Shown one piece after another: positions 32,090 to 59,204 of a stretch of 64,000 nucleotides of DNA; position 1 is the first letter of the stretch, and every line of letters begins with the position of its first letter. The position numbers and the translations under genes are program-made. The DNA is from Halalkaliarchaeum sp. AArc-CO (lineage in GTDB: Archaea; Halobacteriota; Halobacteria; Halobacteriales; Haloferacaceae). Under the pieces are notes generated by a model. That model saw nothing but the letters and a program-made list of their open reading frames with translations. It ran no database searches and was not told the origin of the DNA. Location of the stretch: the NCBI RefSeq assembly GCF_024972735.1, contig NZ_CP087723.1:2356001-2420000 (forward strand), written 5' to 3'.

Positions 32090-32290
32090 GAGGAATCCCT
32101 CACGCCCGAAATGAGGCCGGACGAACCCATAACTGAAGCGGCTATTCCAGCTAAACGACAATAGCGACGGCGTCGAACCTACTTCGGCTATTAAAACATA
32201 GCGATAATCAACTGAAATCGAGGAGCGGATTCCCAATAGATGAGAATTTGTTGTCCATTTCAATTAATATAAACGTTAATAATGAACTGC
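32090..32290. promoter_or_regulatory. Shared divergent promoter region, radical SAM gene / hydrogenase operon
   Basis: A conspicuously AT-rich 200-bp gap in a GC-rich genome. Plus-strand TTAATATA (32264-32271) is 24 bases before the hydrogenase ATG at 32291, giving a leaderless start. Minus-strand GTTTTAATAG (about 32190-32199) is a candidate box for the radical SAM gene. Confidence 0.55.
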
Positions 32291-33478
32291 ATGTCAACAC
32301 TTTCCAATACGTCTCGACGGAACTTCCTTCGGCTGGCGGGGGCGACAGCCGCAGGATCCGTCATCGCCAACCACTCGACGGAGATCGCCTCCGCCTTCGA
32401 GCGGGCGTCCGAGGGGAACATGGACGTCGTCTGGCTCCAGGGACAGGCGTGTACGGGCTGTACAATCTCGACGCTACAGGCCCAGTATCCGACGCTCGAG
32501 GAGGCGCTCCAGCAGTTCCGACTCGACGTGACCTTCCACCCGACGATCATGCCGGAGGCCGGTCCAGCGGCGATAGATGCGATGAGCGACGAGCCGGACA
32601 TCCTCATCGTCGAGGGATCTGTCCCCGTCGACATTCCCGAGGCGGCGACGGTCGGTCGAAACCCCGACGGTTCGGCAAAGGCGGTCGTCGACTGGGTGAT
32701 GGAACTGGCTCCGGAGGCGGAACTCGTCGTCGCGGTCGGTAACTGTGCCTCGTTCGGGGGCTGGCCGGCTGCCCAGAACAAGAAAAGACTCTACGGTCTG
32801 GGCGACAACGTCACTGGCGCGAAAGGGCTCCAGTTCGAGAAGCGCAGCGCAGGGGGCGTGTTGGGGCCCGACTTCACCTCCGGCGCCGACCTCCCGGTCG
32901 TCAACCTGGGCGGCTGTCCGCCCAACCCGGATTACGTGCTGTTGACGCTGGCGACCGTCCTCAACGGTCACATTCCCGAACTCGATCGATACCACCGTCC
33001 GAAGCCCTTCTACGAGCCGCTCGTGCACGACAACTGTCCGCTGCGGGGGTACTTCGACCGTGGCGAGTTCGCAGACAAACCTGGCGGGGAGGGCTGTCTG
33101 ATAAAGCAAGGCTGTGCCGGTCCGTACACCCACTGCGACGACATGAGCCGGCTGTGGAACGACGGGACGAGCGTCTGTCTGAACGTGGGCTCCCCCTGTA
33201 TCGGCTGCATGGAGCCCGGATTCTGGGATCGGTTCTCGCCGTTCCGCGAAGACATCGAGAGCGCCGCCATTCTCGGGAACGTCAGCGCTACCCACGCGGG
33301 GGCGGCAGGCGTCGTCGCGGCCGCAGCCGGCATCGGCGCTCACGTCGCCCGGAAGGCGATGGGCTACGGGAAGTTCGACGACGGGGGAGAACCGCCCGAG
33401 AACGAGGGACCGCCCGGAAACCAGGGACCCTCCGATACCCAGGACCCGCCCGAGAAACCGGAGTCGAACGCCGACTGA
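32291..33478 (+). CDS. hyaA: [NiFe]-hydrogenase small subunit, Tat-exported
   Basis: Electron-transfer subunit with three Fe-S clusters, 395 residues. The twin-Arg signal SRRNFLRLAGATAAG (residues 8-22) sends the folded dimer outside. Proximal-cluster ligands include C54 and C57 (QACTGC), NCASFGG and GGCPPNP; distal and medial ligands are HDNCPL, GCLIKQGC, THCDD and CLNVGSPCIGC. A weakly hydrophobic segment near 335-360 may be the C-terminal anchor, followed by an unusual Pro/Gly/Glu-rich tail. The ATG at 32291 is preferred over one three codons upstream because of the TATA spacing. It is the first gene of an eleven-gene operon. It is most like group 1 membrane uptake hydrogenases. Confidence 0.93.
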   Translation: MSTLSNTSRRNFLRLAGATAAGSVIANHSTEIASAFERASEGNMDVVWLQGQACTGCTISTLQAQYPTLEEALQQFRLDVTFHPTIMPEAGPAAIDAMSDEPDILIVEGSVPVDIPEAATVGRNPDGSAKAVVDWVMELAPEAELVVAVGNCASFGGWPAAQNKKRLYGLGDNVTGAKGLQFEKRSAGGVLGPDFTSGADLPVVNLGGCPPNPDYVLLTLATVLNGHIPELDRYHRPKPFYEPLVHDNCPLRGYFDRGEFADKPGGEGCLIKQGCAGPYTHCDDMSRLWNDGTSVCLNVGSPCIGCMEPGFWDRFSPFREDIESAAILGNVSATHAGAAGVVAAAAGIGAHVARKAMGYGKFDDGGEPPENEGPPGNQGPSDTQDPPEKPESNAD

Positions 33479-33518
33479 CGGATCGAACTGAAACTGACCA
33501 CACGAACACACGACACAC

Positions 33519-35057
33519 ATGCCAGAAATCACGATCGATCCGACGACGCGAATCGAAGGCCACCATGGAACCACCCTGCAGGTAGAGGACGGGGTCGTCC
33601 AGGAGGCGAAAAGCGAGATGAAGATGTTCCGGGGTGCAGAGATAATCACGCTCGGTCGTCCGCCAACGGACGCCGCCCAGATCACCGGGATGGTGTGTGG
33701 CGTCTGTTTCCTCTGTCACCGACTGTGCTCCTCGAAGGCGGCCGAAGACGCCGCAATGAACGCCGGCGTCTTCGATGGCCCGCCGCGGAACGCGGTGCTG
33801 CTTCGGGACGCGGCGGAAGGTATCTTCTACCTGTGGAACCACGCCGTCCACCTGTTCGCCCTGGTCGGACCCGACTACAGCGATGCAGTGGCGGGAACCG
33901 GTTTCGACCGACTGGATCCGCTCGAGGGCGACGGCTACATGGGTGCAATCGAGAACCAGCGCAAGCTCATGAAGGCGCTCGCAGAGTTCGGCGGCCGCGC
34001 GCCCCACCCGGTCGGCTACGTCCCGGGCGGTCTCGCGATCCATCCCGACGCCTCGACGATCGCGTCGGTGAAGTCCCGCGTAATGGAGGTCAGCAACTGG
34101 CTCGGACCCACCGAGGCCGTCCCGGACGTGATCGAGAACGTCCAGGCTGGTGAACTGGATCCCGAACTCGGCGAGGGGTTACACGACATCGTCTCGATCC
34201 TCGTGGCTGCAGCCGAGTTGGGCGCCGCCGACATCGGCGAGGGGCCGAACCGGTACTACAGCAACGGCATCTTCGAGGACCCCGAGACCGGCGAGCTCTT
34301 CCTGCCGCGCGGGGTCTATCGCGACGGCTCGATCGAACTGATGACCAAAGAGGAGGTCGTCGAGGGCATCACAGAGGACACCGAATACTCCTGGTACACG
34401 GACGACTCGGGAGGGGCTCCGACCGAAGCAAAGCCGCCGGAGCCGGACCTCGACAAGGACGAGGCCTATTCGTGGGGCAAGGCCCCGCGGTTCGACGGGG
34501 AGTCGATGGAGGTCGGCCCGCTCGCCCGTCTCGTCATCAAGGACGCGGACCCGTTCGACCTCCGGGAGACGCTGGGCGGGGGCGCCGACGAGAGCAACAC
34601 GCTCAATCGGCTGATCGCCCGCGCCCAGGAGGCGCTTCTGGTCCGCGACCAGGTGCTCGAGTGGCTCGACGCGATCGACCCCGCCGAGCCGTTCATGGCC
34701 GACGACTGGACCGACGACTTCACCGGATCCGGCGTCGGTCTGTTCGAACCGTCCCGTGGTGCACTCTCCCACTACATGGACGTCGAGAACGGACAGATCG
34801 AGCGCTACCAGATCATCACGCCGACGCTGTGGAACATCGGACCACGCGACGGCGAGGGACAGCCCAGCATCTTGGAGGAGGCGATCGTCGGAGACGAAGT
34901 CGACAACGTCGACAACCCGCTGAACATCCTCCGGACGATCCGATCGATGGACCCCTGTCTCGCCTGTGCGGTCCACGTCCAGAGTCCGGACGGAGAGTTC
35001 GAGACTGAGATCGAACCGGCCCGGCCAGGCATCTCGGAGGGGGGATGTGATGTCTGA
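33519..35057 (+). CDS. hyaB: [NiFe]-hydrogenase large subunit
   Basis: Catalytic subunit carrying the NiFe(CN)2CO centre, 512 residues. N-terminal ligands are C60 and C63 in MVCGVCFLCH; C-terminal ligands are C480 and C483 in DPCLACAVH. RIEGHHG at residues 11-17 is the usual N-terminal signature. The Arg that normally precedes the first Cys pair is Val here, and an extra Cys stands just before the His. After His486, 26 residues remain, to be removed by the maturation protease; about 15 is more usual. It starts 40 bases after the small subunit and overlaps the cytochrome gene by eight bases. No signal peptide: it is exported with the small subunit. Confidence 0.95.
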   Translation: MPEITIDPTTRIEGHHGTTLQVEDGVVQEAKSEMKMFRGAEIITLGRPPTDAAQITGMVCGVCFLCHRLCSSKAAEDAAMNAGVFDGPPRNAVLLRDAAEGIFYLWNHAVHLFALVGPDYSDAVAGTGFDRLDPLEGDGYMGAIENQRKLMKALAEFGGRAPHPVGYVPGGLAIHPDASTIASVKSRVMEVSNWLGPTEAVPDVIENVQAGELDPELGEGLHDIVSILVAAAELGAADIGEGPNRYYSNGIFEDPETGELFLPRGVYRDGSIELMTKEEVVEGITEDTEYSWYTDDSGGAPTEAKPPEPDLDKDEAYSWGKAPRFDGESMEVGPLARLVIKDADPFDLRETLGGGADESNTLNRLIARAQEALLVRDQVLEWLDAIDPAEPFMADDWTDDFTGSGVGLFEPSRGALSHYMDVENGQIERYQIITPTLWNIGPRDGEGQPSILEEAIVGDEVDNVDNPLNILRTIRSMDPCLACAVHVQSPDGEFETEIEPARPGISEGGCDV

Positions 35058-36012
35058 GAAAAGCGCCGACCCCCGGGAGGTGAACCGCCAGACGGCCGAC
35101 AACTCCGCCGACGGGTGGCTCACGAGGCTCTGGCTCGACGTCGCCGAGCGCTACGAGCGGTACCAGTACCTCGAGGAGGAGGACAAGGAGATACTGGACT
35201 GGCACGGGTGGGGATCTATCGTCTCCCACTGGTCGATGGTACTCGTCACGCTGCTCGCGGCGGCGACCGGTCTCGCGATCTGGACCGGCTGGTACGGGCC
35301 GTTGAACATCGGCATCTGGGACGGCTACCACGTCGCGTTCGTGATCCACATCTGGGCGGGAGTCCTGCTTGCAGTGTTTGCTTTGCTACTGTTCCCGTAC
35401 TACGATCTTGTCGTCGACGGAGAGTCGCCGCTGATCAGCCGCGAACAGGTCAAAGATCAGATCGTCATCACGCTTTCGTTCCTCGGACTGGCCAGTTACA
35501 TCCCCGGATACAAGAAGGCCCGACGGACGTACGACGAGACGACCGGCGAGTGGGCCGGCTACCACCCGATGCAGACGGCGTTCTGGTATGCGACCTGGTT
35601 CTTCGCGATCCTCCTGACGCTTTCGGGATTCGCACTCTGGGCGGAACTCGCGACGGATCCGGCGTGGTGGATCGCCGGAATCGGCTTCCTGGCAGGGACC
35701 GTCGCCTACGAGACCATGCTCCGGATCCACTTCCTGGCGACGATCTTCTTCCTCGTCTCGGTAGGGGTTCACGCGTACTTCCCGCTGTGTCCGAGCAACC
35801 ACGACCTGCTGTTCTCGATTATCCACGGGAAACTGTACGGATGGAGAGTCGACGAGGAGAGCCGACCCGAACGTCGGGGAGAAACGCGATCGAAAGACAG
35901 GCTCACAAAGCGGTTCGACGCGATCTCGAAGCGTCTCGGCACCAGCACGGACGTCCAGGAACAGCTCGGCTCCGAGGCCGACGAAAAAGCCGAAGAGGCG
36001 GATTCGAAGTGA
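35050..36012 (+). CDS. Hydrogenase-linked cytochrome b
   Basis: 320-residue membrane protein of the HyaC/cytochrome b561-type family that takes electrons from the small subunit and passes them to quinone. It begins MSEKSADPREVNRQTADNS with a hydrophilic N-terminus of about 55 residues, then membrane segments near SMVLVTLLAAATGLAIW, VIHIWAGVLLAVFALLLF, ATWFFAILLTLSGFALW and FLATIFFLVSVGVHAYF. Candidate haem-ligating histidines lie in SHWSM, YHVAFVIHIW, MLRIHF and VGVHAYF. A basic then acidic cytoplasmic tail of about 70 residues is longer than in bacterial HyaC. The start overlaps the large-subunit stop by eight bases. Confidence 0.9.
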   Translation: MSEKSADPREVNRQTADNSADGWLTRLWLDVAERYERYQYLEEEDKEILDWHGWGSIVSHWSMVLVTLLAAATGLAIWTGWYGPLNIGIWDGYHVAFVIHIWAGVLLAVFALLLFPYYDLVVDGESPLISREQVKDQIVITLSFLGLASYIPGYKKARRTYDETTGEWAGYHPMQTAFWYATWFFAILLTLSGFALWAELATDPAWWIAGIGFLAGTVAYETMLRIHFLATIFFLVSVGVHAYFPLCPSNHDLLFSIIHGKLYGWRVDEESRPERRGETRSKDRLTKRFDAISKRLGTSTDVQEQLGSEADEKAEEADSK

Positions 36013-36014
36013 CG

Positions 36015-36569
36015 ATGACGGGATCGTCCCTGAACGCCCGGTCGGCGGCGGCAAAACGACGCGACGAAATCGATTGTGCCGAGATTGCGGTGGTCGGCGT
36101 CGGGAATCCGATCATGGGCGACGACGGCGTCGGGAAGCGCGTGATCGACGAGCTGGAGACGTCGTCCGACGAGCGGACGAACGGCGTCGTGCTCACGCAC
36201 GCCGGAACGACCGCGTTCTTCGCGCTGGAGGCGATGAGTGGCTGCCGGAAGGCGATCGTCGTCGACGCGATCGAGACCGGAGCGGAACCGGGGACAGTCC
36301 ACAGGTACAGGTACGTCGACGGCGCCTTCGCCGGCGAAGTCCCGGAGATGACGATGCACGACTTCTCGTTTGCAGAGGCGCTGCGGGCGGGACGAGACGC
36401 GTACGACATCCCGGACGAACTGCTGGTGTTCGGCATCGAGCCCGCCCGGATCGAGGCGACCCTGGAGCTGAGCGACCGAATCGAACGCGGGGTCCCCGAA
36501 CTGGTGGATCTCGTACTCGAGGAACTCGCGACCAAATCTACACGTATCGATGGAGGAGATGAACCATGA
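36015..36569 (+). CDS. Hydrogenase maturation protease (HyaD/HybD/HycI family)
   Basis: Nickel-dependent endopeptidase that trims the large-subunit tail after the active site is built. 184 residues; the fold starts VVGVGNPIMGDDGVGKRVID with the first metal ligand Asp/Glu region (DDGVG). A second is VVDAIETG and the His ligand lies in MTMHDFSF. FGIEPARIEATLELS is the family C-terminal signature. A GTG two codons earlier is an alternative start. It begins just after the cytochrome stop and overlaps the next small gene by four bases. Confidence 0.92.
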   Translation: MTGSSLNARSAAAKRRDEIDCAEIAVVGVGNPIMGDDGVGKRVIDELETSSDERTNGVVLTHAGTTAFFALEAMSGCRKAIVVDAIETGAEPGTVHRYRYVDGAFAGEVPEMTMHDFSFAEALRAGRDAYDIPDELLVFGIEPARIEATLELSDRIERGVPELVDLVLEELATKSTRIDGGDEP

Positions 36570-36772
36570 GCTCACAGTGGTACTGTACGGACTGTGAAAC
36601 GTACATCGACACCGAGGAAATCGAGGAACACGAGGCCGACGACCACACCGTGAAAGGGACACTTCGGCCCGACAGACTGCTCGGCAACGATCCCTGGAAC
36701 ATGCAGATCGAGGCCGACGGGGAGATCGACTCCGCCCCGAGTGTGCGCAGAGACGAGGGGGGTGATGAGTGA
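36566..36772 (+). CDS. Small zinc-finger-like protein of the hydrogenase operon
   Basis: 68 residues; not recognised. MSSQWYCTDCETYIDTEE then EEHEADDHTVKG gives Cys-x2-Cys (residues 7 and 10) and His-x4-His, a C2H2-like zinc site. A charged C-terminal part has the motif LRPDRLLGNDPWNMQIEADG. It starts within the protease stop (ATGA) and its stop overlaps the hypC start (TGATG), so it is locked into the operon and almost surely expressed. Position between the protease and hypC hints at a role in assembly or metal handling, but that is inference from context only. Confidence 0.7.
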   Translation: MSSQWYCTDCETYIDTEEIEEHEADDHTVKGTLRPDRLLGNDPWNMQIEADGEIDSAPSVRRDEGGDE

Positions 36773-37176
36773 TGTGTCTCGGTATCCCAGGGGAGATCCT
36801 CGAGATCGACGGCCTCACGGCGCGGGCGGAGTTCTGGAACGTCGAAAAGGAGGTCAGACTCGACATCGTCGGCGACGAGGTCGAGGTAGGCGACTACGTC
36901 CTGAATCACGCCGGGTTCGCGATCCGGAAGATCCCCGACGACGACGTCGAGGAGACGATCGAACTGTACGAGTCGCTGCTCGCGGGCGACGAGGACGAGG
37001 CGCTCGAGGAGATCGGCGCGACCGACGCCACCCTCGAGTTCGGTGACCGGCCCGCCGCCGTCGACTCGCCAGCGGCCACGACGACGATCGACGGGATCGC
37101 CCAGCGCCCCGAGGCCGGTTCGCGGACAGCCTCGGAGGACTCGACGGAGAAGTCGGAGCGTGACGCGGATGAGTGA
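36772..37176 (+). CDS. hypC: Hydrogenase maturation chaperone HypC
   Basis: Small chaperone that with HypD carries Fe(CN)2CO to the large subunit. The ATG at 36772 gives MCLGIPGEILEIDG; Cys2 must be exposed after Met removal, which decides this start over the GTG one codon earlier. 134 residues is longer than the usual 80-100, because a disordered Ala/Thr/Ser/Glu tail follows the conserved domain (GDYVLNHAGFAIRKIP). Start overlaps the previous stop (TGATG) and the end overlaps hypD by eight bases. Confidence 0.94.
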   Translation: MCLGIPGEILEIDGLTARAEFWNVEKEVRLDIVGDEVEVGDYVLNHAGFAIRKIPDDDVEETIELYESLLAGDEDEALEEIGATDATLEFGDRPAAVDSPAATTTIDGIAQRPEAGSRTASEDSTEKSERDADE

Positions 37177-38272
37177 GGAGACACTCCAGTTTCGCGACCC
37201 CGAGCAGGCCGAGCAGCTTGCCGACCGGCTCGAGGCGCTGATGGCCGAGATCGACGGATCGGTGAACCTGATGCACGTCTGTGGCTCCCACGAGCAGGCG
37301 ATCGCGAAGTTCGGGCTCCGGAGCATGCTCCCCGACGGGCTCTCGCTCCGGATGGGGCCGGGGTGTCCCGTCTGCGTGACGAACATGCCGGAGGTCGACG
37401 AGGCCGTCGCAGTCGCGAAACAGGGGGCGATCGTCGCCACCTACGGCGACATGTTCCGGGTCCCGGGGACGACACAGAGCCTCGCGGACGCCCGGGCGGA
37501 CGGCGCTCGCGTCGAGATCGTCTACTCGGCAAGCGAGGCGGTCGACCTCGCCGAGGAGAACCCCGACGAGGAGGTCGTTTTCTTCGCGACGGGGTTCGAG
37601 ACGACCGCCGCCCCCACTGCGGCGATCCTGGTCGACGATCCCCCGGAGAACTTCTGGGTGCTTTCGGCCCACAAGTACGTCCCGCCGGCGATGGAGGTCG
37701 TCGCAGAGATGCCCGACACCGACATCGACGGCTTCCTGGCGGCAGGCCACGCGGCGACCATCACCGGCTACGGGCTCTTCGAGCCGTTCGTCGAGGAGTA
37801 CGAGATACCAGTCGTCGTGGGGGGCTTCGAGCCGGTCGACGTCATGCTCGGAATCGAGCGGTTGCTCGAGTACATCCGCGAGGACACTGCCGGACTGGAG
37901 AACGCCTATCCCCGGTGTGTGACCCGGGAGGGGAACCGGGCCGCACTCGAGACGATGTGGTCGGTCTTCGAGAAGACGTCCGGCGAATGGCGCGGGATCG
38001 CCGAAATTCCGGGGGCGAACCTCACCCTCAGGGAGGAGTACGCCGACTACGACGCCCGGGAACGATTCGACGTCGAACCGGAAACCGGGGGCCCCGACCC
38101 GCTGACCGAACAGTGCGTCTGCGGCGACATCATGGCCGGCAAGGCCGACCCCGACGAGTGTGACCTGTTCGGCGAGGAGTGTACGCCCGGCAATCCGGTG
38201 GGCGCCTGCATGGTGAGCAGCGAGGGAACCTGCAAGATCTGGCACGAGTACGGGGGACACCCGGACCTCTAA
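37169..38272 (+). CDS. hypD: Hydrogenase maturation protein HypD
   Basis: Fe-S scaffold on which the Fe(CN)2CO group is assembled. 367 residues, typical length. Signature segments are present: MHVCGSHEQAIAKFGLR (active-site Cys), GPGCPVCVT, FATGFETTAP-like FFATGFETTAAP, and the C-terminal 4Fe-4S region with CVCGDIMAGKADP, CDLFGEECTPG and GACMVSSEGTC. The ATG at 37169 lies eight bases inside hypC and precedes MSEETLQFRDPEQAE, consistent with coupled translation. Confidence 0.95.
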   Translation: MSEETLQFRDPEQAEQLADRLEALMAEIDGSVNLMHVCGSHEQAIAKFGLRSMLPDGLSLRMGPGCPVCVTNMPEVDEAVAVAKQGAIVATYGDMFRVPGTTQSLADARADGARVEIVYSASEAVDLAEENPDEEVVFFATGFETTAAPTAAILVDDPPENFWVLSAHKYVPPAMEVVAEMPDTDIDGFLAAGHAATITGYGLFEPFVEEYEIPVVVGGFEPVDVMLGIERLLEYIREDTAGLENAYPRCVTREGNRAALETMWSVFEKTSGEWRGIAEIPGANLTLREEYADYDARERFDVEPETGGPDPLTEQCVCGDIMAGKADPDECDLFGEECTPGNPVGACMVSSEGTCKIWHEYGGHPDL

Positions 38273-38274
38273 CG

Positions 38275-39417
38275 ATGGCCAGTGACAGCACACCGGAGAC
38301 GGACAGGGACGAATCGGGCGGCGGCTCGGGTAACGAATCGGGCGGCGGCTCCCCCGACGGCTCCGGTGACGACTCCGGCGAGGTCGTCACCCTCGCCCAC
38401 GGAGCCGGCGGAGAGGCGATGCGGTCGCTGGTCGACGAACTCGTCGTGCCCCGGTTCACGGACGGCGATCGGACGGCCGGAGTCGGCGAGGGTGGTGTCG
38501 GACTGGCGGCGCTGGACGACGGGGCGGTCCACCCGATCGGCGACGGCTCACAAGCGATCGTCGTGACCACCGACAGCCACGTCGTGACGCCCAGGTTCTT
38601 CCAGGGCGGCGACATCGGCCGGCTGGCCGTGGCGGGAACCGTAAACGACCTCGCTGTGATGGGGGCGACGGAACCGCTCACTCTCACCTGTTCGTTCGTG
38701 CTCGAAGAGGGGACCCCGATCGCCGACGTCGAACGCGTCGTCGAGTCGATGCGGAAAACTGCCCGGGAGGCCGGCGCGACGATCTCGACGGGCGACACGA
38801 AGGTGATGGGCAACGGCGAGATCGACGGGATCGTGATAAACACCGCCGGGATCGCGCACGTGGATGCCGGCGACGCAGTGACCGACGCCGGTCTCCGACC
38901 GGGTGACGCAGTGATCGTCAGCGGGACGATGGGTGATCACGGGATCGCGCTGCTCGCCGAACGCGAGGGGTTCGACTTCACGGGTGATTTGAAAAGCGAC
39001 GTCGCCCCGGTGAACGACCTCGTCCGGGCGGCGATGGCGGCCGGCGAGGTGACGGCGATGAAAGACCCCACCCGCGGGGGGCTGGCGAATGCGCTCAACG
39101 AGATGGCCGATAAGGCGGACGTCGGAATCGACGTGGTCGAACGTGACATTCCGGTCTCGGGAGCGATCGCCTCCGCGGGCGAGGTGCTCGGAATCGACCC
39201 GTTCGCGGTCGCCAACGAAGGGAAGGTCGTGTTCGGGGTGGATCCCGGCGACGCGGATGCAGTCCTCGAAGCGATCAAAGACCGTCCCGGCGGCCAGGAG
39301 GCCGCGATCGTCGGGCACGCAACCGAGGAACATCCCGGGCGCGTCGTCGTCGACACCGGCTTCGGCCGTCGATACATGAGCGAACCAGAGGGGGAAACCC
39401 TCCCCCGGATCTGCTGA
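38275..39417 (+). CDS. hypE: Hydrogenase maturation protein HypE
   Basis: Dehydrates the carbamoyl group on its C-terminal Cys to thiocyanate, the CN donor. 380 residues. It ends in LPRIC, so the reactive terminal Cys is intact. The PurM-like fold is seen in VTLAHGAGGEAMRSLV, AVAGTVNDLAVMGA and KDPTRGGLANALNEMA. The first 37 residues are an unusual Gly/Ser/Asp low-complexity extension (GGGSGNESGGGS) absent from bacterial HypE, with internal DNA repeats. It starts two bases after hypD and its stop overlaps hypA (TGATG). Confidence 0.95.
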   Translation: MASDSTPETDRDESGGGSGNESGGGSPDGSGDDSGEVVTLAHGAGGEAMRSLVDELVVPRFTDGDRTAGVGEGGVGLAALDDGAVHPIGDGSQAIVVTTDSHVVTPRFFQGGDIGRLAVAGTVNDLAVMGATEPLTLTCSFVLEEGTPIADVERVVESMRKTAREAGATISTGDTKVMGNGEIDGIVINTAGIAHVDAGDAVTDAGLRPGDAVIVSGTMGDHGIALLAEREGFDFTGDLKSDVAPVNDLVRAAMAAGEVTAMKDPTRGGLANALNEMADKADVGIDVVERDIPVSGAIASAGEVLGIDPFAVANEGKVVFGVDPGDADAVLEAIKDRPGGQEAAIVGHATEEHPGRVVVDTGFGRRYMSEPEGETLPRIC

Positions 39418-39818
39418 TGCACGAGATAAGCGTCGCCTCCGGCATCCTCGACCGCGCGATCACGGCGGCGGAGGAACACGGCGCCGACCGGATCGACGCG
39501 ATCACGATCGAGATCGGCCGGGCGACCCACGTCAATCCCGAGCAGCTCGTGTTCTGCCTCGAGACGATCGCGGATGGAACGGCGGGCGAGGGCGCGACCG
39601 TCCGAACCGAGACCGTGGATCCGGTTGCGGTATGCGACTGCGGCTGGCGCGACGAACCCGACGATCTGGGACTGGTCGGCGGGTTCGCGCCGGACGTCCG
39701 CTGTCCGGAGTGTGGTGAGCGGACTGAACTCGTCCGGGGACGAGAGTGCCGGCTCGCGAGCATCGAAGTACCGGAGGCTGGTGACAGGACCGAGCAGACA
39801 GCTACCCAGGAGCGTTGA
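39417..39818 (+). CDS. hypA: Hydrogenase nickel chaperone HypA
   Basis: Nickel-binding chaperone that works with HypB. 133 residues. MHEISVASGIL supplies the N-terminal Met-His-Glu nickel site. The zinc ribbon is CDCG...CPECG; the first pair is CxC rather than the usual CxxC, which should be checked against homologues. Its start overlaps the hypE stop, and its stop lies just before hypB. Confidence 0.93.
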   Translation: MHEISVASGILDRAITAAEEHGADRIDAITIEIGRATHVNPEQLVFCLETIADGTAGEGATVRTETVDPVAVCDCGWRDEPDDLGLVGGFAPDVRCPECGERTELVRGRECRLASIEVPEAGDRTEQTATQER

Positions 39819-39826
39819 GAGGACAC

Positions 39827-40681
39827 ATGCACTACGAGAGGACGATCCGACCGATCCGACTGTACCGAACGAACCGAGCCACTCTCCCGCCGGTTCGGTG
39901 GCTCGAGGAACTCGCAGATCGCCTGGGGGCGGCCCGGGCCCACCGGTTCGGCCACGGGGACCACGATCACGGCGAGAGCGCAACCGACGCCGAGGCCGAC
40001 GTGCTGGCGGCGATCCGGGAGCGCGCCGGCGAGATCCACGAGACGCTCGCCCACGACCACGGCGTGTTCGCCGTGGAGTTCGTGGGCTCCACCGGCGGCG
40101 GAAAGACGAAACTCATCGAGGAACTGCTCGAACGCGCCCCGACGGACGAACAGATCGGCGCGATCGTGGGCGACGTCGCCGGCGAGGACGACGCGACCCG
40201 GCTCCGCGAGTACGGGATCCCCGTCGAGAACGTCAACACCGGCAAGGAGTGTCACCTCGATCCGGGCGGGATCGAGACGGCGCTCTCCGCGTTCGATCTC
40301 GAGGAACTGGACACGCTGTACGTCGAGAACGTCGGTAACATGGTGTGTCCGGCGGACTTCCCGCTGGGCGCGACCGTCCGGGTGCTCGTGGTCAGCACCA
40401 CCGAGGGCGACGACGTGGTCGCCAAACATCCCCTCCTGGTGCAGAAGTGCGACGCGGCGGTCGTAAACAAGGTCGACCTCGCCGAGGCGGTGGGAACCGA
40501 CCTGGATCGGGTTCGGGCCGACCTCGCGCGGGTTGCCCCCGACGTTCCGGTGTTCGAAACCGACGCGAGCTCCGGGGCGGGCGTCGACGAACTCGGAGAT
40601 TTCCTGGAGTCGAAACGCGGAGAGCACGGTCACCACGGGCACGATCACGAACACGACCGAGTTCACCATCCCGGCGAGTAG
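39827..40681 (+). CDS. hypB: Hydrogenase nickel-insertion GTPase HypB
   Basis: GTPase for nickel delivery, 284 residues. P-loop VGSTGGGKT at residues 86-94; nickel/zinc site NTGKECHLDPGG; G4 NKVDLAE. Two histidine-rich stretches frame the domain: HRFGHGDHDHGE near residue 39-50 and EHGHHGHDHEHD at the C-terminus, both likely to bind or store nickel. The ATG at 39827 (MHYERTIRPIRLYRTN) is used; a TTG four codons earlier overlaps hypA. It ends three bases before hypF. Confidence 0.94.
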   Translation: MHYERTIRPIRLYRTNRATLPPVRWLEELADRLGAARAHRFGHGDHDHGESATDAEADVLAAIRERAGEIHETLAHDHGVFAVEFVGSTGGGKTKLIEELLERAPTDEQIGAIVGDVAGEDDATRLREYGIPVENVNTGKECHLDPGGIETALSAFDLEELDTLYVENVGNMVCPADFPLGATVRVLVVSTTEGDDVVAKHPLLVQKCDAAVVNKVDLAEAVGTDLDRVRADLARVAPDVPVFETDASSGAGVDELGDFLESKRGEHGHHGHDHEHDRVHHPGE

Positions 40682-40684
40682 CTA

Positions 40685-43021
40685 ATGACAGGCTCACGAG
40701 TCCGTGTCGACCTCACCGTGCAAGGCGTCGTCCAGGGAGTCGGGTTCCGCCCGTTCGTCTACCGGCGGGCAACCGACCACGACCTGTCCGGCACGGTTCG
40801 AAACACTGGTGACGCCGGGGTCGAAATCGAACTTGAAGGGGACGCCGGGAGCGTGGAGGCGTTCCTTGCGGATCTCCGAGAGCGACCGCCGCCGCTCTCC
40901 CGGGTCGAGTCGGTCGAGGTCGATCGAAGAGACGAAAGCGGGGACTCCACGATCGGAGGAAGCGAGGAGTTCCGAATCCTCCAGTCGACCGACGACGACG
41001 GTGGTTCGGGAACGATCCCGCCCGACACCGGAATCTGTGATCGGTGTCTCGAGGACGTCCGGGATCCGGAGTCGCGATACCACCGCTACTGGGCGACCTC
41101 CTGTGTGGATTGTGGCCCCCGATACACGGTCATCCGAGAGTTGCCGTACGACCGACCGCGCACCTCGATGGACGCGTTTCCGATGTGTGACGCCTGCCGA
41201 ACGGAGTACGAGAACCCTGCCGATCGACGCTATCACGCCCAGACGATCGCCTGTCCCGACTGCGGGCCAACGCTGTCGCTTCTGGAACCGGTCGACGGGG
41301 GGGCCAGTCCGGGCGCACAGCGCCGGGAACGCGCGACCGGTCCGGAGGCGATCGACGAGACGGCGCGACGGCTCGCCCGCGGAGAGATCGTCGCGATCAG
41401 GGGTATCGGCGGCACGCATCTGGCGTGTGACGCAACCGATCCCACGGTCGTACAGCGGTTGCGCGAGCGAACGAACCGCCCGGGGAAGCCGTTCGCGGTG
41501 ATGACACCGTCGGTCGACCGGATCCGGTCGTTCGCCCGAGTCTCGGAGACAGAACGGGAGCAACTCGAGGACGTCCGTCGACCGATCGTCGTCCTCGAAC
41601 GGGACGACGAGGACTTGCTCGGCGCCGTCGCACCCGGACTCCACACTGTCGGGGTGATGCTCCCGTACGCGGGACTTCACCACCTCCTGTTCGAAGAAGC
41701 CGTAACCGAAGGGAAACACGTGGCCTCCAGGATCGAGGGTCCGCTCGTAATGACGAGTGGAAACATGCCCGGAGATCCAATGTGTACGTCAGTCGACGAG
41801 ATCTTCGGGAGCCTGTCCGGCGTGATCGATGCCGCGCTGGTTCACGATCGAGAGATCGTCGCCCGGTGTGACGACAGTGTCGTGCGCGTCGTCGACGGCG
41901 ACCGACGGTTTCTCCGGCGATCCAGGGGGTGGATCCCTCAACCGTTGCCTCGCCAGTCCGAGGGATCACCGACGCTGGCGCTCGGAGCGGAGTTCGACAG
42001 CACCGTTGCGCTGGCTCGCGACGACGAGGTGTTTCCCTCTCAACATCTCGGCGACGTCGACGATCCGGCAACCGAGAGGTTCCTCCGGGAAACGGTCGAT
42101 CACCTCGCCGAACTGCTGGGGGTCGATCCGAGCGTCGTCGCCTGCGACGCTCATCCGAACTTCCTCACGAGCAAACTGGCCGCGGAGTACGCCACCGAGG
42201 AACCGATCCGAGTGCAACATCATCACGCCCACGCGGCCTCGCTTCTGGGCGAGCACGACCGCGACCGGGCGATCGTAATCGCCGCCGACGGCACCGGCTA
42301 CGGCCCCAACGGGACGATCTGGGGGGGCGAGGTGCTCGACGCGACGAGAGGCTCCTTCGAGCGGATCGGAGGGCTCGGAACGTTCCGCCTGCCGGGCGGA
42401 GAGGCGGCGATCGAACGGCCGGCGCGGATTCTCGCGAGCCTGCTTTCGGATCCAGATCGGATCGACGAATTGCTGATCGAGCGGGCAGCGCTTTCACCCG
42501 CCGATGCATCGACCGTGCGACAGAGCCTGGAGGCGGGAGTGAACGCGCCGGAAACGACGAGCGCCGGCCGGTTCCTCGACGCGATCGCCGCGCTCGTCGG
42601 GGTCGGGACCGAGCGACGGTACCAGGGCGAACCTGCGATCAGGCTCGAGGCAGCCGCTTCCGGACACGATCCGGTCGACATCGAGATCCCGTACCGACGG
42701 CGCGACGGCGATCGAGTGGTCGACGTGAATCGCCTGACAGAGACTCTCGAAACACTACTCGAGAGGGAACCGGCAGCCGTCGTCGCCGCGACAGCCCAGG
42801 ACGCGCTGGCGCGGGGGCTCGCCGAGATCGCAGTCGACGTGGCCGTCGATCGGGACGTCGACGCGATCGGATTCACCGGCGGCGTGGCGTACAACGAGGC
42901 CATTTCCCGACGGATCCGGGAAACCACCGAATCTGTGGGGTTGGCGTTCCTCGGCCACGAGCAGGTTCCGCCTGGCGACGCCGGGATCGCGTACGGACAG
43001 GCGGTCGTCGCGACGGAATGA
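40685..43021 (+). CDS. hypF: Carbamoyltransferase HypF
   Basis: Uses carbamoyl phosphate and ATP to load the HypE Cys. 778 residues with all domains in order: acylphosphatase-like (VQGVVQGVGFRPFVYRRA, residues 12-29), two zinc fingers (CDRCLEDV...CVDCGPRYT and CDACRTEY...CPDCGPTLS, about 115-205), a YrdC-like nucleotide domain (GIGGTHLACDATDP, near 240), and a Kae1/TobZ-like domain (VQHHHAHAASLLGEH, near 510; GFTGGVAYNEAI near 735). Last gene of the operon; followed by an AT-rich region where transcription presumably ends. Confidence 0.96.
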   Translation: MTGSRVRVDLTVQGVVQGVGFRPFVYRRATDHDLSGTVRNTGDAGVEIELEGDAGSVEAFLADLRERPPPLSRVESVEVDRRDESGDSTIGGSEEFRILQSTDDDGGSGTIPPDTGICDRCLEDVRDPESRYHRYWATSCVDCGPRYTVIRELPYDRPRTSMDAFPMCDACRTEYENPADRRYHAQTIACPDCGPTLSLLEPVDGGASPGAQRRERATGPEAIDETARRLARGEIVAIRGIGGTHLACDATDPTVVQRLRERTNRPGKPFAVMTPSVDRIRSFARVSETEREQLEDVRRPIVVLERDDEDLLGAVAPGLHTVGVMLPYAGLHHLLFEEAVTEGKHVASRIEGPLVMTSGNMPGDPMCTSVDEIFGSLSGVIDAALVHDREIVARCDDSVVRVVDGDRRFLRRSRGWIPQPLPRQSEGSPTLALGAEFDSTVALARDDEVFPSQHLGDVDDPATERFLRETVDHLAELLGVDPSVVACDAHPNFLTSKLAAEYATEEPIRVQHHHAHAASLLGEHDRDRAIVIAADGTGYGPNGTIWGGEVLDATRGSFERIGGLGTFRLPGGEAAIERPARILASLLSDPDRIDELLIERAALSPADASTVRQSLEAGVNAPETTSAGRFLDAIAALVGVGTERRYQGEPAIRLEAAASGHDPVDIEIPYRRRDGDRVVDVNRLTETLETLLEREPAAVVAATAQDALARGLAEIAVDVAVDRDVDAIGFTGGVAYNEAISRRIRETTESVGLAFLGHEQVPPGDAGIAYGQAVVATE

Positions 43022-43203
43022 CTGTGGACGACGGAGAGAGTCGACGAACATATAGAATCAGAATATAATAAATATATTTTATATGATTGTCGAATCCGAG
43101 CAATCCGATTCGAACGTGTCAAACACTGCCGAGAACAGGAAAAAGTCGAAGCCGACGAATTAGAGCAGATAACAGTGCGAGTAATAGTGTAATAAACACG
43201 TGC

Positions 43204-43241
43204 AAACAAAACCTGCCGAACTGTAAACAAACCTGTCGAAC
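43204..43241. repeat. Imperfect direct repeat AAACAAACCTGYCGAAC
   Basis: Copies at 43204-43221 and 43225-43241 differ by one inserted A and one C/T change. They lie in the AT-rich island and could be a protein-binding site. Confidence 0.75.
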
Positions 43242-43666
43242 GACGACGAAATCCCTCGACAACAGGGATCGAAAAGCCGGCGTTCTCGTCCTATTCGATA
43301 CGAGATAAACCAAAGTTACCACCAGTTGTGTCGAGATAAGGAAGGACCGACGGTTATTACCATAAAATATATATTAAACCCGAATAAACAGATTAATTAT
43401 ATTTTCTACCGCACTACCGCACTACCGCGCTCGAAGGGTCGGAGCCGTCCGTCAACAGACGGTCATAGCGTTCGCTGGCCAAAAAATATATAGTGTTCTA
43501 TACTAATATATACCAATACAGATCGTCGGAAGGCTGTCGGTACACGTTCGTACCCCTTCGGACCCGAATATATACGTATTACAACATTATTTGAGCGGCG
43601 ACCGAATACAGTTACGCGATGGTATTGAACCATCCACCAGCCGGAAGAGAGATAAAAACCATTACC

Positions 43667-43674
43667 TTTATAGA
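43667..43674 (+). promoter_or_regulatory. ugp operon promoter
   Basis: TTTATAGA centred about 31 bases before the ugpB ATG; indicates a leaderless or nearly leaderless mRNA. Confidence 0.6.
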
Positions 43675-43700
43675 GAAGACCCTTATAGGTGTGATAGACC

Positions 43701-45107
43701 ATGTCAGATAATGGTAGGCGGTTGATCAGCGAAGCGGCGTCGCGACGTCGCGTGCTCAAGAACGTCGGAGCAGCCGCGTCCGTCGGTGGATTGGCGGCCG
43801 TGGCCGGATGTACGGGTGACGGCGACGACGAGCCCGCCGATGTCGGCGGCGAAGGTGAAGTCGAGGGCGTCGACGAGGTCGAAATCGAGTTCTGGCACGG
43901 GCTCGGCGGCGACCTCGGACAGATGGTTTCGGACCTCGCGGACGACTTCAGCGAGCAGTCCGACACCATCACAGTGACTGCGATCGAGCAGGGGACGTAT
44001 CGGGAAACGATGAACCAGACGATCAACGCCGTTCGCGCGGGTAACCCGCCGGGCCTGGCACAGATCTTCGAGGTCGGAACCAAGCAGGCGTACGACAGCG
44101 GAGCGTTCGTCCCCATCGAGGAGGTCATCCCGGAGGAGCAGCTCGAACTCGAGAACTTCCTGGATCCGGTGCTCAACTACTATCGGATCGACGGGCAGCT
44201 CAACTCGATGCCGTTCAACTCCTCGAACGCGCTGATGATGTACAACAAGACTGCCTTCGAGGAGGCCGGGCTCGACCCCGAATCGCCGCCGGAGACCTTC
44301 CAGGAGGTCATCGACTACTCCGAGGAGCTGATGGACGCCGGCTACAACTACGGCATTACCTGGCCGAACCACTCGTGGTTCGTCGAGCAGTGGTTCGCGC
44401 TCCAGGACCAGGAGCTAGTCAACAACGAAAACGGCCGCGCCGGAGACCCGACGGAAACGTACATCAACAGCGACGCCGGGATGAACGTCTTCGAGTGGTG
44501 GCAGGAGCTCGACGAGATGGGCGCGTACCTCTCGACCGGGATCGAAGCGTGGGGCGAGGCCCAGCAGGGCTTTTTCACCCAGGAGGCACCGATGGTGCTG
44601 TATTCAACGTCCAGCATCAACCCGATGCTGCAGGGCGCCCAGGACAACGACTTCGAGGCGGCCGCCGCGCGGATCCCCGCACCGGAAGGACAGCGTGCCG
44701 GCGTCACGATTGGGGGCGGCTCGGTGTGGATCCCCGACGGACAGGACCAGGCCGAACAGCAGGCTGCCGCGGAGTTCCTCCTGTGGCTCACCCAGCCCGA
44801 ACAACAGGAGCGATGGCACCGCGGCACCGGCTACTTCCCCGTGCGCGAGGAGTCGATCGAGAACCTCGAGGCGGAAGGGTTCTACGACGAGAACCCGGAC
44901 TTCCGCGTCGCGCTCGACCAGCTCCAGGAAGGCCAGGACACGCCGGCGACTCGGGGCGGGCTCATCGGGCCGTTCCTCGACACCCGGACGACGATCGCCG
45001 AATCCGCAGTCGCAGTCATGGACGGAGATCCGGTCGGCGAAGTGCTCGACGACGCCGCCGAGGACATCGAAGAGGCGCTCGAAGACTACATCGAGCGACA
45101 GTCGTAA
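43701..45107 (+). CDS. ugpB: ABC transporter substrate-binding lipoprotein, UgpB-like
   Basis: Family 1 extracellular solute-binding protein, probably for glycerol 3-phosphate or glycerophosphodiesters given the operon partners. 468 residues. Export signal SRRRVLKNVGAAASVGG with a lipobox-like VAGC (residue 37) marks it as a Tat-exported lipoprotein, the haloarchaeal norm. The mature domain starts EIEFWHGLGGDLGQMV, with the UgpB-like WHG segment, and includes IGGGSVWIPDG. The phosphodiesterase gene downstream supports the substrate guess; a sugar is an alternative. Confidence 0.85.
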   Translation: MSDNGRRLISEAASRRRVLKNVGAAASVGGLAAVAGCTGDGDDEPADVGGEGEVEGVDEVEIEFWHGLGGDLGQMVSDLADDFSEQSDTITVTAIEQGTYRETMNQTINAVRAGNPPGLAQIFEVGTKQAYDSGAFVPIEEVIPEEQLELENFLDPVLNYYRIDGQLNSMPFNSSNALMMYNKTAFEEAGLDPESPPETFQEVIDYSEELMDAGYNYGITWPNHSWFVEQWFALQDQELVNNENGRAGDPTETYINSDAGMNVFEWWQELDEMGAYLSTGIEAWGEAQQGFFTQEAPMVLYSTSSINPMLQGAQDNDFEAAAARIPAPEGQRAGVTIGGGSVWIPDGQDQAEQQAAAEFLLWLTQPEQQERWHRGTGYFPVREESIENLEAEGFYDENPDFRVALDQLQEGQDTPATRGGLIGPFLDTRTTIAESAVAVMDGDPVGEVLDDAAEDIEEALEDYIERQS

Positions 45108-45269
45108 TCCCCGTGTCCGGCACCCGGCTCGGCGGATCGGGGCGGCGATCGAATCGACGTCGAGTCGGCCAACTGACCGGACGGAGTCGGACGAGAACAG
45201 GTGCGACAGATATATAGCCCGCATTTTTCAATATGCCAGAAACCATGCGAAACAGGGGGTACAGAATCG

Positions 45270-46172
45270 ATGGCTGAATCGCAGAGAGCGGTGTTCAAAA
45301 ACCGGAAGCTCGCGGCGCTGCTTTTGCTTCCGACGATCGCAGTCTGTCTGGCGTTCCTGTACTATCCGGCTATCGACACGTTCCGGTTGAGCCTGTTCCA
45401 GACGACGCTGGTCGACGAGACGTTCGCCGGTCTCTACAACTACGAGCGGATGTTCACTTCCGAGCGGTATCGAAACAGCATTTTCGTGACGTTCGCGTTC
45501 GGGGGTGTCGTCGTGTTCGGTACGATGCTGGTTGCGCTATTTATCGCATTTATGATGTACGAGGTGAACCACTTCACCTCGGTGTATCTCATCACCGCGA
45601 TCTGGCCGTACGCGCTGCCGCCGGCCGTGGCGGGGCTAGTGTTGTTGTTCCTGTTCCAGCCCGATCTCGGAATCTTCACCTACTACATCAGGGCGATCGG
45701 GTCGGTCTTCGGCATGGACATCGCGTTCAACTGGCGACAGGACGGCCCGCTTGCGTTCGCGGTCGTTTCGGTCGCGGCGATCTGGAAACAGCTCGGCTAC
45801 AACATCATCTTCATGATCGCGGCACTGAACAACATCCCGGACACGATCGACGAAGCGGCCGAACTCGACGGGATCGGTCGCCTCAACCGACTGTTCCGCA
45901 TCTACGTGCCGCTGATGTCGCCGACGCTCGTGTTCCTGATCGTGATGAACACGATCTACGCGTTCTTCGCGACGTTCCCGCTGATCGACCTGATGACCAG
46001 CGGCGGTCCGGGCGGTGCGACGAACATCCTGATCTACAACCTCTACATCGACGCCTTCGAGAACTTCAACCTCGGGTACGCCTCCGCACAGTCGCTCGTG
46101 TTGTTCCTGATCGTCGGGTTGTTGATGTACGGACAGCTCAGAGTCTCGGACCGGTACGCACACTACGGGTGA
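45270..46172 (+). CDS. ugpA: ABC transporter permease UgpA-like
   Basis: 300-residue inner-membrane permease of the MalF/UgpA class with six membrane segments, from LAALLLLPTIAVCLAFLYY through LVLFLIVGLLMYG. The cytoplasmic ATPase-coupling EAA loop is DEAAELDGIGRLNRLFRIYV. Start MAESQRAVFKNRK at 45270 follows a TATA-like GATATATAG (45209-45217) by 57 bases, so a secondary promoter within the operon is possible. Pairs with UgpE, six bases downstream. Confidence 0.88.
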   Translation: MAESQRAVFKNRKLAALLLLPTIAVCLAFLYYPAIDTFRLSLFQTTLVDETFAGLYNYERMFTSERYRNSIFVTFAFGGVVVFGTMLVALFIAFMMYEVNHFTSVYLITAIWPYALPPAVAGLVLLFLFQPDLGIFTYYIRAIGSVFGMDIAFNWRQDGPLAFAVVSVAAIWKQLGYNIIFMIAALNNIPDTIDEAAELDGIGRLNRLFRIYVPLMSPTLVFLIVMNTIYAFFATFPLIDLMTSGGPGGATNILIYNLYIDAFENFNLGYASAQSLVLFLIVGLLMYGQLRVSDRYAHYG

Positions 46173-46178
46173 TTATCG

Positions 46179-47081
46179 ATGGCAGAATCAACAGTCTCAG
46201 AGACGACGACACGAGGCGAAGACACCACGACAGGGGTCCGACGGAACCGACAATCCCTGGGGGACGTCCTCCCCGACCAGTGGCTGATGCACGTTGGACT
46301 GATCGTCTCCATTTCGCTCATGGCGCTCCCGCTGATACTCGCGGCGATCATGAGCACTCAGTCAGTCGCCGAGATCTACGACGTGACGAACCTCGCCCCC
46401 GGAAGCGACGCCTACGAGAACTACTACCGGGTGATGACCGACTTCAACATGTGGACCTACCTCATCAACTCGACGATCATGGCGCTTGCCATCGTCGTCG
46501 GGAAGGTGGGCCTGTCGCTTCTGGCGGCGCTCGCGCTGGTCTACTACGACTTCCCGTACAAGAACGCGACGTTCATGTTCGTGCTGTTCACGCTGATGCT
46601 CCCGGTACCGGTCCGGATCGTCCCGCTGTTCGAGCTGATGGTGAACCTCGACTGGACGAACACGATGCTCGCGATCACGATGCCGTATCTGGCGAGCGCG
46701 ACCGCAGTCTTCCTGTTCCGGCAGCACTTTATGTCGATTCCGGCGTCGATCGTCGAGGCGGCAAAGCTCGACGACGTTGGCGGGCTCAGGTTCCTGATCT
46801 TCGTGTTGATCCCGATGTCGAAAGGGATGATCGCGGGCATTTCGGTGATCACCTACATCTACGCGTGGAACCAGTACCTCTGGCCGCTGGCGGTCATCAG
46901 CAGCCAAGATCAGCAGGTCGTACAGGTCGGGCTCAAGAGCCTCGAAGGAACCGCAGCGGCGGGACAGATCGAGTGGGGGCTCATCATGGCGGGCGCAATG
47001 ATCGCGCTCGTGCCCCCGCTCGTGGTGCTGATCGTGCTGCACAAGCCGCTGCTCGAAACGTTCGGTCTCCAGCAGAAATAG
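46179..47081 (+). CDS. ugpE: ABC transporter permease UgpE-like
   Basis: 300-residue second permease of the MalG/UgpE class. About 35 hydrophilic N-terminal residues (MAESTVSETTTRGEDTTTG) precede six membrane segments beginning VGLIVSISLMALPLILAAI. EAA loop: VEAAKLDDVGGLRFLIFVL. It begins like UgpA (MAES), otherwise unrelated. Ends four bases before the ATPase gene. Confidence 0.88.
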   Translation: MAESTVSETTTRGEDTTTGVRRNRQSLGDVLPDQWLMHVGLIVSISLMALPLILAAIMSTQSVAEIYDVTNLAPGSDAYENYYRVMTDFNMWTYLINSTIMALAIVVGKVGLSLLAALALVYYDFPYKNATFMFVLFTLMLPVPVRIVPLFELMVNLDWTNTMLAITMPYLASATAVFLFRQHFMSIPASIVEAAKLDDVGGLRFLIFVLIPMSKGMIAGISVITYIYAWNQYLWPLAVISSQDQQVVQVGLKSLEGTAAAGQIEWGLIMAGAMIALVPPLVVLIVLHKPLLETFGLQQK

Positions 47082-47085
47082 AACG

Positions 47086-48237
47086 ATGGCAACGATTCAA
47101 CTCAACGACGTGGTGAAGCGCTTCGACGACGTCGTCGCGGTAGACGGCATCGACCTGACGGTTCGTGACGGCGAGTTCATCGTCATCGTCGGCCCGTCGG
47201 GCTGTGGAAAGAGCACGACGCTCCGACTCATCTCGGGATTGGAAGACGTCACAAGCGGCGTCATCGAGATCGGTGGCCGCGACGTCACCGGACTCGAACC
47301 GAACGAGCGGGACATCTCCATGGTGTTTCAAAACTACGCGCTGTACCCGCACATGACCGCAAAGCGGAACATGACGTTCGGCATGAAGTCCGCCGGCGAC
47401 TTCACCGACGAGGAGATCGAACAGCGCGTGACCGAGGCGGCGGAGATCCTCGACATCACGGACCTGCTCGATCGAAAGCCGGGGGCACTGTCCGGCGGGG
47501 AGCGCCAGCGGGTCGCGCTCGGGCGGGCGATTTCCCGGGACCCCGAGGTGTTTTTGATGGACGAGCCGCTGTCGAACCTCGACGCGAAGCTACGGGTCCA
47601 GATGCGTGCCGAACTGGCGAAGCTCCACGACGAACTGCAGACGACCACCGTCTACGTCACCCACGACCAGACGGAGGCGATGACGCTTGGTGACCGTGTC
47701 GCAGTCATCGACGCCGGACAGATCCAGCAGGTCGACTCCCCACAGCGGCTGTACGACTTCCCGGAAAACCGGTTTGTCGCGGAGTTCATCGGCGACCCGG
47801 CGATGAACATGATCGACGTCACCGTCCGTGACGGCAACGCCGTCCACGAGGCGTTCTCGATCCCGCTTCCCGCCGGAGAGAACACGGTCGGGAGCGGGGA
47901 GGTAACCGCTGGGCAGCGGTCGGCGATCCTCGGCATCCGTCCCGAGGACTTCTATCTGGCCAGCGAGTATCCCGACATGGGGGAAACGACGTTCACGGCG
48001 ACTGTTACGGTCACCGAACCGCTCGGGGACAGCCTCCTTTTGTACTGCCGGATCGCCGACACCGAGTTCAAGGTGCAGGCGGAACCCCGGAGCACGCTCC
48101 AGCCGGGTGACGAGGTCGAGTTGACCTACGATCCAGCACGGCTCCACCTGTTCGATCCGGAAACCGGCGACGCCATCTACCACTCGGAAAGCGCCCCCGG
48201 ATCCGAGGAGCAGCTCGAACAGCCGGTCGACGAGTGA
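47086..48237 (+). CDS. ugpC: ABC transporter ATP-binding protein UgpC-like
   Basis: 383-residue ATPase of the MalK/UgpC class. Walker A GPSGCGKST (residues 37-45), Q-loop VFQNYALYPHM, signature LSGGERQRVALGRA, Walker B VFLMDEPLSNLDAKLR and H-loop VTHDQTEAMTL. The C-terminal TOBE-type regulatory domain (from about 240) has LGIRPEDFYLASE. It powers import by UgpA/UgpE. Ends three bases before the phosphodiesterase gene. Confidence 0.93.
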   Translation: MATIQLNDVVKRFDDVVAVDGIDLTVRDGEFIVIVGPSGCGKSTTLRLISGLEDVTSGVIEIGGRDVTGLEPNERDISMVFQNYALYPHMTAKRNMTFGMKSAGDFTDEEIEQRVTEAAEILDITDLLDRKPGALSGGERQRVALGRAISRDPEVFLMDEPLSNLDAKLRVQMRAELAKLHDELQTTTVYVTHDQTEAMTLGDRVAVIDAGQIQQVDSPQRLYDFPENRFVAEFIGDPAMNMIDVTVRDGNAVHEAFSIPLPAGENTVGSGEVTAGQRSAILGIRPEDFYLASEYPDMGETTFTATVTVTEPLGDSLLLYCRIADTEFKVQAEPRSTLQPGDEVELTYDPARLHLFDPETGDAIYHSESAPGSEEQLEQPVDE

Positions 48238-48240
48238 TCG

Positions 48241-48951
48241 ATGGGACGAAGTCGACCCCCGATCGGCCGGCGTCGTGACGACGGGGAGCCGGCGTTGCGG
48301 ATCGGCCACCGCGGCTGTGCGGATCAGCATCCGGAGAACACGGTCGAAGCGATCGAGCAGTCGGCGCCGTACGTGGACGGCTTCGAGATCGACGTACGCC
48401 CGTGTGGCTCCGGCGAGCTCGTCGTCTTCCACGACGAGACGCTCGACCGGGTGACCGACGGAACCGGCCGCGTCGACGAGACCACGCTCGGAGAGCTCCG
48501 GGAACTGGAGGTGCTCGATTCCGGCGAGACCGTTCCGACCCTCGGGGAGCTGCTTTCGGCGGTGCCCGACTGGCTTCCGGTCAACGTCGAGCTGAAGGCG
48601 ACGGGGATCGAAAAGGAGGTGCTCGAGATCTGTGGCGACGCCGACGTCGAAGTGCTGTACTCGTCGTTTTTCGTCCGTGCGCTGCGCGAACTCCGGGACG
48701 CCGACGAAGCGGCACCGGTCGGAGTTCTGTGTCACGAGGGCGTCGACGACCGGCTCGCACTCGCCGAGGAGCTCAAGGCCGTCGCCTTTCACCCGTCGAT
48801 GGAGCTGGCACTCGAAACGGACATCGTCGAAAGATGTCACGATCGCGGGCTTGCTGTAAACGTCTGGACTGCCGAAACCGAAGCCGACGTCCGTCGGCTG
48901 CGCGAGCGGGCCGTCGACGGGATCATCGCCGATCGGTGGGACGTGTTTTGA
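48241..48951 (+). CDS. ugpQ: Glycerophosphodiester phosphodiesterase
   Basis: Cytoplasmic GDPD that splits glycerophosphodiesters into glycerol 3-phosphate and an alcohol. 236 residues. The catalytic HRG and partners are visible in RIGHRGCADQHPENTVEA and FEIDVRP, with VVFHDETLDRVTDGTG giving the second His. VNVELKATG carries the metal-binding Glu. No signal peptide, consistent with a UgpQ-like internal enzyme acting on imported substrate. Last gene of the ugp operon; converges with the BCCT gene. Confidence 0.9.
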   Translation: MGRSRPPIGRRRDDGEPALRIGHRGCADQHPENTVEAIEQSAPYVDGFEIDVRPCGSGELVVFHDETLDRVTDGTGRVDETTLGELRELEVLDSGETVPTLGELLSAVPDWLPVNVELKATGIEKEVLEICGDADVEVLYSSFFVRALRELRDADEAAPVGVLCHEGVDDRLALAEELKAVAFHPSMELALETDIVERCHDRGLAVNVWTAETEADVRRLRERAVDGIIADRWDVF

Positions 48952-58898: not shown

Positions 58899-59204
58899 GT
58901 GCCAGTCGAGATACGCCTGTACGGCCGGCTGCGCGACGCGGCCGGCGTCAAGTCCGTCACGAGAACCCCTCCGGAGGGAACGACCGTCTCGACACTCCTC
59001 GAGTCCCTCGGGAAGGAGTATCCGGAGCTCGCCGAACAGCTGTTCGACGACGACGGAACGGTTCGGAACCGCGTGATCGTCCGAAAGAACCGGACGACGC
59101 TCGACGCGCTTTCGGTCCCCGTCGACGATGGGGATCGGATCGCTGTCGCGACGCAAGTCGTCGGCGGGGGACACACGCCACCAGGGACGGGTTTCGACCA
59201 GTAA
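58899..59204 (+). CDS. MoaD/ThiS-like sulfur carrier with C-terminal tail
   Basis: 101-residue beta-grasp protein (MPVEIRLYGRLRDAAGVKSV, GTTVSTLLESLGKEYPELAE, VDDGDRIAVATQVVGGG). The start is a GTG; no in-frame ATG is near. MoaD carriers normally end in Gly-Gly, but here ten residues (HTPPGTGFDQ) follow the glycines, so it would need trimming before activation or may not act as a carrier. MoaD-like proteins commonly accompany tungsten-pterin oxidoreductases, and an AOR gene lies 1.3 kb to the right. Confidence 0.78.
   Translation: MPVEIRLYGRLRDAAGVKSVTRTPPEGTTVSTLLESLGKEYPELAEQLFDDDGTVRNRVIVRKNRTTLDALSVPVDDGDRIAVATQVVGGGHTPPGTGFDQ

Follow-up and report, generated by a model that had tools for sequence, protein, structure and literature searches.

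A run of eleven plus-strand genes at 32291-43021 of a haloarchaeal contig raises two questions, namely what kind of hydrogenase it encodes and how far it stands apart from what has been described in Halobacteria. The window, i.e., the whole stretch of 64,000 nucleotides that was analysed, corresponds to C2:2356001-2420000 of a two-contig, 3.18 Mb genome (G000). Our reading, held with high confidence, is that the operon encodes a respiratory [NiFe]-hydrogenase, HydABC, which is bound to the membrane and exported by Tat, together with its full maturation set, and that H2 is oxidised outside the cell with reduction of quinone.

Gene Content and Spacing

Reading frames, their translations and scans against protein families give the order hydA, hydB, hydC, hydD, a gene for a 68-aa Cys/His protein and hypC-D-E-A-B-F (Table 1), and Pfam or NCBIfam matches name ten of the eleven genes, the exception being the small Cys/His protein. 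From hydA to hypF the intergenic distances are 40, -8, 2, -4, -1, -8, 2, -1, 8, and 3 bp (hypB taken at ATG 39827), that is, no gap between neighbours exceeds 40 bp and several genes overlap; read from TTG 39815, hypB overlaps hypA by 4 bp. The original prediction of eleven plus-strand genes in this order is confirmed, and the spacing suggests that they form a single operon. The start of hydA was placed at ATG 32291, a further in-frame ATG being present at 32282, and the position of the candidate TATA-like element would suit a leaderless hydA transcript. A search of 42900-43800 in the window found no terminator-like site. All reading frames are open with conserved motifs intact, HypF shows acylphosphatase, zinc-finger, YrdC and Kae1-like domains, and a family search of the same genome found no second [NiFe] large subunit.

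Table 1. Features of the hydrogenase locus (positions within the window).
Feature	Position	Strand	Remarks
Candidate archaeal TATA-like element TTAATATAAA	32264..32273	+	~25 bp upstream of hydA ATG; sequence inspection
hydA, [NiFe]-hydrogenase small subunit	32291..33478	+	
hydB, [NiFe]-hydrogenase large subunit	33519..35057	+	
hydC, cytochrome b subunit	35050..36012	+	
hydD, hydrogenase maturation protease (HycI/HyaD family)	36015..36569	+	family scans
68-aa Cys/His protein	36566..36772	+	no family at default threshold
hypC	36772..37176	+	C-terminal extension present; family scans
hypD	37169..38272	+	family scans
hypE	38275..39417	+	family scans
hypA	39417..39818	+	family scans
hypB	39827..40681	+	alternative start TTG 39815; ORF list, family scans
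hypF	40685..43021	+	domain scan

In the surroundings of the operon, its 3′ side is occupied by sugar-type ABC transporter genes (43752-48951) for a solute-binding protein, an inner-membrane permease and a MalK-like ATPase, which do not make up a nickel uptake system. An aldehyde ferredoxin oxidoreductase-family protein (60492-62168, minus strand) and a ThiS/MoaD-like protein (58899-59204, plus strand) are encoded nearby.

Structural Subunits

The N-terminus of HydA carries the Tat motif SRRNFL (SRRNFLRLAG), the twin-arginine signal expected on a group 1 small subunit, and the protein has 11 Cys and an acidic tail; most haloarchaeal relatives keep both the Tat motif and the Fe-S cysteines. A C-terminal hydrophobic segment at residues 325-357 is weak, and an anchor predicted to be so poorly hydrophobic counts against our reading. 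Escherichia coli Hyd-1 (HyaABC) and the Cupriavidus necator MBH (HoxKGZ), both group 1d, share with the present enzyme the small/large/cytochrome b order, Tat export and four His. These two enzymes are O2-tolerant and have 6-Cys proximal clusters, whereas the proximal motifs of the window HydA are plain (CTGC and GNCASFGG) with no extra O2-tolerance cysteines within them. Close to the medial cluster HydA has one more Cys, C296, at a position where HyaA and HoxK have Pro, and C282, another medial Cys, is displaced in the alignment with these two proteins; both bear on whether the cluster has four Cys, as group 1a would call for, or three.

HydB scores 277.8 bits against PF00374 and holds both Ni-Fe ligand motifs of the large subunit, CGVC and the C-terminal DPCLACAVH, the latter followed by a putative cleavable tail. 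Its best NCBIfam models are of the NiFeSe type or of general nickel-dependent hydrogenases, all below cut-off, and among PDB entries a [NiFeSe] chain matches best. The L1 motif, MVCGVCFLCH, has Met instead of Arg and thus departs from the RxCGxC form, which is common though not strictly defining for group 1. Haloarchaeal relatives differ at this position too: several have M, K or T, while L051-L055 and L057 retain Arg; judged from this alignment, the exchange is variation within the family.

The Pfam score of HydC (29.9 bits) is slightly below the cut-off of 30.1. Its His60, His100, His227 and His241 are conserved without exception in an alignment of 20 distinct relatives from haloarchaea with E. 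coli HyaC and C. necator HoxZ. We take this four-His pattern to be that of a di-heme hydrogenase cytochrome b, with heme binding predicted. HydC is 63% identical to its counterpart in the same-genus genome G359 compared with 81-97% for the other ten operon proteins, therefore the membrane partner diverges faster than the rest of the operon, a further point against our reading.

Published Relatives and the HydB Tree

The operon is already known, being an ordinary member of a published haloarchaeal system. The module of hydABC with adjoining hydD and hypA-F was described before and looked suited to lateral transfer; its hydrogenases were assigned to group 1a by HydDB, and growth with H2 was reported for both the AArc-Sl and AArc1 groups, Halalkaliarchaeum desulfuricum AArc-Sl growing with H2 or formate plus sulfur (Sorokin et al., 2018; PMC6176080). 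We take G359 to be AArc-Sl; its HydB is 94% identical to ours, its operon has the same gene content and order, and the genome is collinear with 28.4-43.0 kb of the window (the operon and ~4 kb upstream) at 77-85% DNA identity. Natrarchaeobaculum sulfurireducens AArc1 also has the identical order and a HydB ~84-85% identical to that of the window, but its operon lies on a plasmid (NZ_CP024046) with ABC uptake genes upstream, whereas ours is chromosomal (3.0 Mb contig) with the sugar-type transporter operon downstream. The HydABC of Halodesulfurarchaeum formicicum HTSR1 and HSR6 is likewise a three-subunit membrane-bound uptake enzyme of Group 1; these strains are strict anaerobes and cytochrome oxidase-negative (Sorokin et al., 2017; PMC5437934), in contrast to the two COX1 matches in the present genome.

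In a HydB tree of 51 rows, where bacterial references are few and several branches are long, the haloarchaeal homologues including that of the window form one clade (support 100/100), in which the window HydB pairs with that of G359 at 100/97. Enzymes from the f15 and f16 genomes, which belong to the same phylum, group with this clade (support 100/99), and from these sequences the nearest kin of the clade are probably the Archaeoglobi; f15 is presumed to be Archaeoglobi, with a published tree in support. The f15 hydrogenases are among the closest relatives of the clade at ~45% identity, and in three f15 loci homologues of only two of the eleven genes, hydA and hydB, were detected; HydC, the small Cys/His protein and the hyp genes were not found beside them. 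The eight-row clade holding the window mixes families f1 to f4, as would be expected under lateral transfer. The haloarchaeal HydB clade is split at 100/100 from the outgroup L068/L070/L072, which may suit a large subunit outside groups 3 and 4, but references of group 2b sit close to the archaeal enzymes. As for a bacterial 1a origin, the NCBIfam and PDB matches and the published HydDB label of close relatives point toward 1a, but the single partial 1a (NiFeSe) reference, a long-branched row, falls outside the haloarchaeal clade, which groups with archaeal enzymes. The original prediction was of an uptake enzyme; the tree fits a placement among respiratory uptake hydrogenases, given few bacterial references and outgroup rows that carry no group name, at the level of group 1 rather than of a subgroup.

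Distribution in Halobacteria

Across 391 sampled Halobacteria genomes, HydB has matches at E ≤ 0.001 in 41, and full-length relatives of at least 57% identity, corresponding to this clade, in 27. Hydrogenases were first called rare in Halobacteria; the present enzyme is better described as uncommon. The complete order from hydA to hypF, Cys/His gene included, recurs in ~20 haloarchaeal genomes of several families, hence it is not a matter of chance. This synteny and the AArc1 record rule out a unique layout: the full maturation set does lie beside the structural genes as predicted, but the arrangement is usual in the haloarchaeal family and already published.

Some variation was seen within the family. 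Three genomes (G178, G069, and G258) have two HydB copies each, one in each branch of the haloarchaeal tree (L043, L044, L046; L064-L066), and several haloarchaea, G359 included, encode other, distant [NiFe]-type large subunits (L067-L072). HydA of the subclade L058-L066 has a DFL-type N-terminus without the consensus RRxFL Tat motif, two of its rows keeping RR with shifted spacing, and tblastn found no HydC homologue in this set; the enzyme of this subclade may work on the cytoplasmic side or with a different partner. L050 HydA has Asp for a proximal-cluster Cys (CSGD vs CSGC). In L048 and L049 the extracted ORFs for HydA are missing the C-terminal cysteines and continue into different-looking sequence, with neither HydC nor an adjacent Cys/His gene found, which might reflect a frameshift, an assembly error or a real variant.

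Proposed Function and Alternatives

Because the Tat motif, the Ni-binding motifs, the Fe-S cysteines and the four His are all present, outward-facing uptake of H2 with reduction of quinone is the best reading of the operon. The claim of an outward-facing H2 oxidiser feeding quinone, made when the locus was first described, fits the HydA Tat motif, the HyaC/HoxZ-type HydC, the position of HydB in the tree and the published H2 growth in the same genus. The outer-face orientation, the cluster types and quinone as acceptor are predicted.

The Hyp maturation steps follow general knowledge of these families: HypF and HypE would make cyanide, HypC and HypD would assemble the Fe(CN)2CO unit, and HypA and HypB would insert nickel, with HydD clipping the C-terminus of HydB. 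Folded HydAB would then be exported via Tat and held on the outer face with HydC as its anchor, where the Ni-Fe site would split H2 and electrons would pass through three Fe-S clusters and the HydC hemes to (methyl)menaquinone. In anaerobic growth the menaquinone pool may feed sulfur/polysulfide or other molybdoenzyme reductases. The genome has seven molybdopterin oxidoreductase matches, six of which were classified by best NCBIfam match as two formate-dehydrogenase-like proteins and one each DMSO-reductase-like, PhsA-like (Phs/Psr-like), ArrA-like and TtrA-like, only one of these six, a formate dehydrogenase, passing the curated cut-off; there are also six NrfD matches.

The formate dehydrogenase-like proteins could also speak for an enzyme that runs mainly toward H2 evolution and redox balancing, passing electrons from quinol or another donor to protons at low potential, and [NiFe]-hydrogenases are reversible in principle. 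Coupling to cytochrome b and quinone and a Tat-exported catalytic dimer suit uptake, however, and relatives oxidise H2 with sulfur (PMC6176080), so that we regard mainly evolving activity as very improbable. About equally slight is the chance that this strain carries the intact operon with no H2 oxidation, the genes being silent or a partner missing. Such a case is provided by Halodesulfurarchaeum, where HTSR1 uses H2 and HSR6, with an identical cluster, does not (Sorokin et al., 2017; PMC5437934), hence carrying the genes is no proof of the phenotype; against a silent operon here stand the open frames, the intact motifs and the conservation of the operon in an H2-using sister strain.

A Small Cys/His Protein

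The 68-aa protein between the protease and HypC has the motif CxxC-x11-H-x4-H and a conserved RP[DE]RLL..DP, with M1, W5, C7, C10, I14, H22, E23, H27, V29, P35, R37, L38, L39, D42, and P43 invariant in the alignment; it may bind zinc. At E < 1e-20 it has matches in 25 genomes, always adjoining HydB, which amounts to 25 of the 27 genomes with this hydrogenase; no match of that strength was found away from HydB among the 391 sampled genomes, and weaker matches number nine between 1e-9 and 1e-6 plus one at 3e-4. The AArc1 record labels it "hypothetical," and a paper search for this protein found nothing. It could be an assembly factor not described before and dedicated to the [NiFe]-hydrogenases of this haloarchaeal family, such as a metal or Fe-S chaperone acting between the protease and HypC, a tentative proposal to which we give slightly less than even weight.

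Conserved and unannotated, this protein is the one element of the operon that has been little explored. The operon adds another genome to the published haloarchaea that are probably able to live on H2, by means of a compact hydrogenase module spread over several haloarchaeal families.
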